A stretch of DNA of 37,150 bases from Candidatus Rokuibacteriota bacterium (GTDB lineage Bacteria > Methylomirabilota > Methylomirabilia > Rokubacteriales > CSP1-6). Position numbers and translations under genes: made by a program. Where the stretch lies: positions 1-37,150 of the forward strand of contig QHSA01000091.1 of NCBI GenBank assembly GCA_003220315.1, read 5' to 3'. Position 1 is the first letter of the stretch, and each line of letters begins with the position of its first letter. The notes under the pieces were generated by a model. That model was not told the DNA's origin. It searched no databases and saw only the letters and a program-made list of their open reading frames with translations. Shown piece after piece: positions 603 through 2,004 of this stretch.

Positions 603-1070
603 ATGCTCCGCTACGGGCACCCGGCGCCGACCTTCGCCCTGCCGGCGACGAGCGGCCGCACCGTCTCACTCGCGGACTTCAAGGGCACGGCCGACGTCGT
701 GCTGCTCTTCTACTGCTACGACTGGGGCGGGATCTGAACGCCGGAGCTGCGCGATCTCGGCGGGGTCGCCGCAGACGTGGAGCGCCGCGGGGCCGTCATG
801 CTCGCAATCAGCGGCGACAGCCCCTTCTCCCAGGCGGAGTTCCATCGGCGGCACGCGCTCCCGTTCACGCTCTTGAGCGACGTGCATCGAACCGCGATGC
901 GCGCGTACGGCGTGTGGGACGAGGAACGGAACGTGGCCTACCGCTCGACCTTCGTCGTCGACCGCGACGGGCTCCTGCGGTGGGGGCAGGCGGGCGATCG
1001 TCACATGGTCCGGAGCGGCGGCGAGATCCTCCGCGTCCTCGACCTGATCCGAGCCCTCAAGGGAGCCTGA
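603..1070 (+). CDS. peroxiredoxin-like selenoprotein (AhpC/TSA-Redoxin fold), Sec45 encoded by in-frame UGA
   Basis: Reading through the TGA at 735-737 gives one continuous 155-residue AhpC/TSA-Redoxin domain. It starts with ATG at 603 (GAAGG at 594-598). N-terminal residues include the usual PAPTFALPATSGRTVSLADF, then beta strand VVLLFYCYDWGGI, UGA, TPELRDL, and finally the strands around AISGD and STFVVDRDG. The UGA falls exactly where the peroxidatic Cys sits in this family (xCTPELRDL). A hairpin at 747-774 has the position and GG loop of a bacterial SECIS element. There is no resolving Cys downstream; the only Cys is Cys38. The family Pro and Thr of PxxxTxxC are replaced by Cys38 and Gly42. 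Peroxiredoxins reduce peroxides with thiol or selenol chemistry; the substrate here is unknown. Automatic callers would start at the internal GTG 777 and lose the active site. The alternative is a nonsense mutation. The 3' end overlaps the convergent binding-protein gene by 14 bp. Confidence 0.8.
747..774 (+). promoter_or_regulatory. candidate bacterial SECIS hairpin
   Basis: CTGC (747-750) pairs with GCAG (771-774), GCGA (751-754) with TCGC (766-769), leaving a bulged C at 770. TCTC (755-758) can pair with GGGG (762-765) using two G-U pairs, leaving an apical GGC. The apical GG is nucleotides 25-26 counted from the U of the UGA. In E. coli fdhF the critical apical G and U are nucleotides 23-24, so position and loop sequence fit SelB recognition. 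Pairing was done by eye; no folding energy was computed. Confidence 0.6.
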
Positions 1071-2004
1071 TCGAGCCGGTCGACCCGGCGATCGTGCCGA
1101 CGACGTGCGCAGCCAGCTCCGTGTCGACGAGGTGCTCGAAGCGATGGCGCCGCCTGATGAACCCACCGCCGAGGAGGATCTCCTGGAGCGTCTCGAATCC
1201 CCCCCGTGTCAGCACCGGGTCGCCGACCCAGGTGGCCTGCCGGAGGTAACGCTCGACGGCTCGCGCGCGGACCCCGGCGTCGATGTCGGCGAATGCCGGC
1301 GCGACGACCGCGGCGATCTCGGTCGCCGTGGCGGCCGCCATCCAGCGCTGCGCCCGGTAGAGCCCACCCACGAAGCGGCCGACGACGTCCCGCTCCCGCC
1401 CGAGCGTCTCCGGCGTCGCCATGTAGGAGCTGAACGGCACCGGCCCGGTGGCCTCCCCCATCGACGCGACGAGATGCCCGGCGCCGCCGGCGATGAGCTC
1501 GTCCACCACGGGAGGCCCGTGTTCCAGGAAGTCCGCTTTGCCGGCACAGAAGGCGGCGACGGCGTCCGGCGTCGAGAGATCGCGGACGAAGGTCACCCGC
1601 GCCGGGTCGAGGCCGTGGCGGCGCAGGACCGCCTGCATGCAGAGCCACGGCGTGGGTGCACCGCCGAACGAGATCACCGTCCGGCCGACGAGATCGGCCC
1701 ACGCGAAGCGGCGGCGCGGCTCGCGGCTCAGGAGGAAGAACCCGTTGCGGTCGTTGACCGCGGCGAAGTGGACGAGGCGCGGGCCTCCGCGATCGACGAG
1801 CTCGAAGCTCCGCATGAGGCCCCCAAGGGCGAGGTCCGCGCTGCCGCTCCGGAGCGCGTCCACCGTGCCGCCTCCCTGCGTCGCCGTCGTGAGCGCGATC
1901 TCAAGGCCTTCCGCCGCCAGGTGGCCGCCGTGAATCGCCACGAACTGGGGCGTGTAGAAGAGCGAGCGGAACGGCTCGATGACCCGGAGGCGCACGGGCG
2001 TCAC
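1057..2004 (-). CDS. NMT1/THI5-like substrate-binding protein, no signal peptide
   Basis: This 315-residue protein has the layout of the SsuA/THI5/NMT1 type II periplasmic-binding fold. It starts with a first strand and helix (RVIEPFRSLFYTPQFVAIHGGHLAAEGLEI), followed by a ligand-loop-like GGGTVDALRSGSADLALGG and a domain crossover near LVGRTVISFGGAPTPWLCMQ. Family members bind small organic ligands for ABC uptake or make the thiamine pyrimidine precursor. No signal peptide or lipobox is visible from the GTG at 2004, and no ABC permease or ATPase is adjacent, so it may act in the cytoplasm or its true start may be missed. No Shine-Dalgarno precedes the GTG. A TATACT box at 2013-2018 lies only 8 bp upstream, which would suit a leaderless transcript. 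The ligand is unknown. Confidence 0.75.
   Translation of the reverse strand: MTPVRLRVIEPFRSLFYTPQFVAIHGGHLAAEGLEIALTTATQGGGTVDALRSGSADLALGGLMRSFELVDRGGPRLVHFAAVNDRNGFFLLSREPRRRFAWADLVGRTVISFGGAPTPWLCMQAVLRRHGLDPARVTFVRDLSTPDAVAAFCAGKADFLEHGPPVVDELIAGGAGHLVASMGEATGPVPFSSYMATPETLGRERDVVGRFVGGLYRAQRWMAAATATEIAAVVAPAFADIDAGVRARAVERYLRQATWVGDPVLTRGGFETLQEILLGGGFIRRRHRFEHLVDTELAAHVVGTIAGSTGSIRLP

Follow-up and report, generated by a model that had tools for sequence, protein, structure and literature searches.

A probable selenoprotein of the AhpC/TSA fold with a CxxxGxxU motif in uncultured Rokubacteria

Results

The reading frame and its in-frame TGA

The window, a stretch of 37,150 nucleotides, is contig C14 of a metagenome-assembled genome (MAG; 4.26 Mb, 98% complete) of an uncultured organism from the phylum Methylomirabilota, which includes the order Rokubacteriales (PMC8780371). 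Its closest relatives among named records are MAGs of Candidatus Rokubacteria/Rokuibacteriota. The features of the locus are as follows.

603–1070, plus strand: predicted selenocysteine (Sec)-containing AhpC/TSA-fold protein of 155 residues; ATG start, TGA stop at 1068–1070
714–716, plus strand: codon of Cys38, which replaces the invariant Pro of PxxxTxxC; C in 35/35 complete orthologues
726–728, plus strand: codon of Gly42, which replaces the catalytic Thr/Ser; G in 35/35 complete orthologues
735–737, plus strand: in-frame UGA, read as selenocysteine 45 in the peroxidatic-Cys column; matches the C of AhpE FFPLAFTGIC in the alignment
751–769, plus strand: SECIS-like hairpin (stem 751–758/762–769, apical loop GGC 759–761), from folding, covariation and bacterial SECIS (bSECIS) criteria
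777–1070, plus strand: open reading frame (ORF) that standard gene calling would give, with a GTG start and without the active site
942–944, plus strand: codon of Arg114, the conserved peroxiredoxin active-site Arg; aligned with AhpE ANRGTFVVDR and invariant in alignment A3

Translation of 603–1070 with readthrough gives one continuous frame, MLRYGHPAPTF...VVLLFYCYDWGGIUTPELRDL...RALKGA*, which around the putatively recoded codon reads MLRYGHPAPTFALPATSGRTVSLADFKGTADVVLLFYCYDWGGI-U-TPELRDL...LKGA and contains a single internal TGA in addition to the terminal one. The Pfam AhpC-TSA profile (PF00578) runs straight across the internal TGA, matching residues 5–127 of 155 (2.2e-34, 118.5 bits versus a cut-off of 26), in agreement with the preliminary description, which had noted family-like sequence on both sides of the TGA in one frame. 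The part after 777 still matches the profile on its own (2.4e-18). Under the standard code, ORF calling returns two ORFs, one of 50 residues terminated by the TGA and one of 97 residues starting from the GTG at 777; recovery of this second ORF (777–1070) bears out the expectation that routine annotation would cut the gene to a fragment without its active site.

Conservation of the UGA codon

Orthologues are present in 36 of the 57 genomes of the family. One copy (G053) is interrupted by a run of N and was left out of the motif counts, giving 35 complete orthologues. All 35, from independent MAGs, contain a single internal stop codon, which is always TGA and always falls in the same codon column; the alignment of homologues at 735–737 that had been suggested as a check thus yields UGA in 35/35 complete copies and Cys in none. 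A search of the 95 genomes of the phylum Methylomirabilota found no Cys form of the gene at E<=1e-30. The core F(Y/F)C(Y/F)(D/A)(W/F)GxIU persists as identity between orthologues drops to about 61%. In six orthologue pairs dN/dS was < 1 both before and after the TGA; the values after the TGA (0.054/0.319 to 0.19/0.768) are well below 1, and judged from these ratios the downstream sequence is under purifying selection. Codons 46–58, which lie between the TGA and 777, are conserved like the remainder, and TPEL is invariant in alignment A3.

As far as we searched, the CxxxGxxU proteins appear to be confined to one family of Rokubacteria. A single strict peptide-pattern scan of genome contigs, which together with the plasmid and viral collections made up the coverage of other phyla, returned only five Rokubacteria records, and relatives of the gene were not found on viral contigs. 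Every match among plasmid records was below 60% identity (best rows 31–38%), and the three plasmid matches that were translated are Cys forms with PxxxSxxC.

A hairpin downstream of the UGA

bSECIS elements are described as having an apical loop of 3–9 nt with G in the first two positions, a stem of 4–16 bp, a distance of 16–37 nt from the UGA and a minimum free energy (MFE) <= -7.5 (PMC13188914). The hairpin in the window has 8 bp and a loop placed 21 nt from the UGA, and folds at -13.0 kcal/mol, with its loop GG at 22–23 nt, so that the apical GG placed 22 nt after the TGA in the preliminary description was confirmed and the hairpin falls within all of these limits. In the folded orthologues (n = 30) a hairpin occurs at the equivalent position. 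Among 23 distinct sequences, 87.9% of stem cells are paired, and sliding one partner by 1–3 columns lowers pairing to < 48%. Stem cells changed on both sides number 13, a count reached in 0/500 shuffles, and the stem closes with GC in 11 of the 23 sequences but with CG in 9 (a compensatory exchange). Stability exceeded that of random synonymous recodings with a mean z of -1.45 across the 30 orthologues, which are partly close relatives. For the window hairpin alone the difference was not significant (z -1.30, P 0.096), as was often the case for single orthologues; the signal resides in the set of related members.

Selenocysteine machinery

The genome search proposed earlier for selA, selB, tRNA-Sec and selD recovered all four. 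The tRNA-Sec was detected at 69.8 bits (cut-off 47), and its anticodon is TCA according to ARAGORN; SelA (501 bits) is encoded on the same contig, and SelB, with the SelB-specific winged-helix and barrel domains, adjoins selA and the tRNA-Sec gene. SelD (L104, 337 bits) has one in-frame TGA of its own, within CAGU, which makes it a candidate Sec-containing selenophosphate synthetase. SelA is encoded by 33 of the 36 gene-carrying genomes and by 84/95 genomes of the phylum; because it is so widespread, its co-occurrence with the gene is consistent with Sec insertion without being discriminating. SelA is missing from three gene-carrying genomes (G041, G042 and G052, the last scored as 100% complete), most likely as a result of assembly gaps. 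Very large selenoproteomes have been reported for Methylomirabilota, one MAG having 63 predicted selenoproteins (cited in PMC13188914), and the gene in the window is consistent with such reports.

Readings of the TGA

We put the probability that 603–1070 is a selenoprotein gene, with Sec encoded by the UGA at 735–737, at roughly 95%; the open frame, the conservation of the TGA, the Sec machinery and the hairpin all support the Sec reading made earlier from the window. Three other readings were weighed and rejected on orthologue, stop-codon and conservation evidence. A single step from TGC to TGA would suffice to create a pseudogene or a sequencing error out of a Cys codon, and the sequence is MAG data; yet the same TGA recurs in 35/35 complete orthologues, the hairpin is conserved and purifying selection extends downstream, which makes this origin extremely improbable. 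A lineage-specific genetic code with TGA read as Trp or Gly, to which several genes with one internal TGA might point, is just as remote: TGA also terminates the window gene and many of its orthologues, the internal TGA codons of paralogues lie at redox-Cys positions, and the SelABCD set is complete. Taken together, the shared TGA, the Sec genes, the hairpin and the purifying selection leave very little room for error, pseudogene or code change. Standard ORF calling does produce two proteins, a short N-terminal peptide up to the TGA and a C-terminal fragment from 777, but that fragment would be missing both the active site and the initial strands of the fold, and codons 46–58, upstream of 777, are as well conserved as the rest, with TPEL invariant; we consider two separate products highly unlikely.

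Fold and active-site residues

The PF00578 match, an AlphaFold2 model built from the alignment (pLDDT 93.5, pTM 0.90) and matches in the PDB all place the protein in the AhpC/TSA superfamily with a thioredoxin-like peroxiredoxin fold. In the model a helix begins at residue 45, the site where peroxiredoxins carry the peroxidatic Cys; the TGA aligns with the catalytic C of AhpE, as had been claimed for 735–737. Among solved structures the best match is the 1-Cys enzyme AhpE of M. tuberculosis (PDB 1xxu, TM 0.89), which phmmer also ranks first. The two proteins share a one-domain peroxiredoxin fold, a single catalytic residue, the conserved Arg, a similar length and 33% identity. They differ at the active site, where AhpE has PxxxTxxC with Cys and the window protein CxxxGxxU with Sec.

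The peroxiredoxin pattern P-x(3)-[TS]-x(2)-C has been called invariant and the active-site Arg strictly conserved (PMC5719442, numbered there Pro38, Thr42, Cys45 and Arg122). In place of this pattern 35/35 complete orthologues have C38-x3-G42-x2-U45, whereas the Arg is present as R114 and Glu48, another peroxiredoxin active-site residue (PMC5719442), is also retained. The only other frequent Cys is at residue 77, which is Ser in the genus of the window. Since two of the three motif residues, Pro and Thr, are lost, peroxidase activity is less than certain. The preliminary description had not remarked that the residues around the Sec, CxxxGxxU rather than PxxxTxxC/U, depart from those of a standard peroxiredoxin; its label 'peroxiredoxin-like' is apt, but peroxiredoxin status in the strict sense is doubtful.

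Relation to known selenoproteins of the fold

A catalogue published in 2026, which covers 119 (sub)families of prokaryotic selenoproteins (PMC13188914), and an earlier table list TxxU, UxxC, UxxU, UGC and UxxS types within this fold; CxxxGxxU is absent from both for the peroxiredoxin fold. PrxU of Eubacterium acidaminophilum (TxxU) resembles the window protein as an AhpC/TSA protein with Sec at the peroxidatic position. The catalogued Sec peroxiredoxins have PxxxTxxU (PMC13188914), whereas the window protein lacks both the Pro and the Thr, and it scores 54.6 bits against the PrxU model peroxi_PrxU (NF040737), far below the cut-off of 270. Indeed, none of the NCBIfam models exceeds its own cut-off for the window protein. 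The peroxiredoxin-like thiol:disulfide oxidoreductase selenoproteins (UxxC, UxxU, UGC, UxxS) likewise combine a peroxiredoxin/thioredoxin fold with Sec; in contrast to the UxxC type, the window protein reads U-T-P-E, with no Cys, Sec or Ser at the corresponding place, and the Cys that might act as its partner precedes the Sec by 7 residues.

Closer to home, the PxxxSxxU Sec peroxiredoxins of other Methylomirabilota (L097–L100, FYPFDWSPGU, from another family, f5, of the same class) and the BCP-like DWTPGU paralogues (L015 and L017, FYPLDWTPGU) have the phylum, the fold and the TGA column in common with the window protein. Unlike it, both groups keep the Pro and the Ser/Thr. In a tree the CxxxGxxU proteins form one 30-member clade (99/99 support) on a long stem of 1.13 changes per column; support for the deeper joins of this tree is weak, and some of its branches are flagged as long. 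On these comparisons the CxxxGxxU proteins are best regarded as a new selenoprotein subfamily with the peroxiredoxin fold.

Discussion

A possible mechanism

We suggest that the UGA at 735–737 would be recoded by SelB with Sec-tRNA(UCA), assisted by the hairpin at 751–769. This would place Sec45 in the peroxidatic site, where helix α2 starts, of a small one-domain fold nearest to that of 1-Cys AhpE. There the Sec45 selenolate, held by Arg114, could attack a hydroperoxide, and either an external thiol or Cys38 might then reduce the resulting selenenic acid. The Thr that normally bonds substrate and catalytic residue is gone (Gly42) and may be dispensable for a selenolate; its loss is perhaps tolerable because a selenol would be ionised without help from Thr. 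In the standard enzyme, the pocket that surrounds the catalytic Cys is lined by Pro38 (PMC5719442); a Cys in place of this Pro could therefore resolve the selenenic acid.

Peroxidase chemistry is, in our view, reasonably probable. The retained Arg114 and Glu48 (PMC5719442), together with the agreement in fold and length with the peroxidase AhpE, speak against a same-fold Sec protein of another function, in which a Sec45/Cys38 selenenylsulfide pair would reduce a disulfide, a sulfoxide or reactive sulfur, or sense oxidants. In favour of such a function, the catalytic motif has lost its Thr and Pro, with Cys38 invariant, in 35/35 orthologues, and other Sec proteins of the fold bear the name thiol:disulfide oxidoreductase (PMC13188914); we regard it as a possibility of some substance, albeit an unlikely one. 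Within the peroxidase reading, the specific proposal that Sec makes the catalytic Thr dispensable and that Cys38 resolves the oxidised Sec in the active site through an Se–S bond is tentative and rather doubtful. If true, the mechanism would differ from the usual ones of 1-Cys, typical 2-Cys and atypical 2-Cys peroxiredoxins.

The probable Sec form is common to a whole family of uncultured bacteria from soil and groundwater, in which current gene calling would truncate the gene and lose the active site, with no NCBIfam model passing its cut-off. That a Sec stands here without the 'invariant' Thr and Pro beside it amounts to a natural experiment on the roles of these residues in peroxiredoxins, and the role of Thr/Pro is testable with one small protein.

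Gene neighbourhood and other candidate selenoproteins

An NMT1-like substrate-binding protein (1057–2004, minus strand) is encoded convergently to the Sec gene and overlaps it by 14 bases at its 3' end. Conservation of the gene's neighbours is partial and does not extend beyond the genus, and thus provides no evidence for an operon. On contig C152 of G002 (L066, 2516–4005), an AhpC-type gene with a TGA and a TlpA-like gene directly precede the orthologue of the window gene.

Several further genes of related type contain an in-frame TGA. The genome of the window has a candidate AhpC/TSA-fold selenoprotein with WUPFC, of the UxxC type (L014, G000:C239:2361-2819; also L019). BCP-like genes with an in-frame TGA (L018, G000:C265:1637-2023, minus strand; L015–L017) are present in all four genomes of the genus, and the plus-strand copies L015 and L017 have the motif DWTPGUSTC. 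AhpC-type genes (L026, G000:C22:9567-9974; L021; L025) read AFTPTUTKEL or similar. TlpA-like genes with an in-frame TGA were seen at L022 and L029 (G003:C14:7570-7911; G002:C418:13986-14357) and, in G000, at L023; their plus-strand copies carry WATWUPDC (UxxC).
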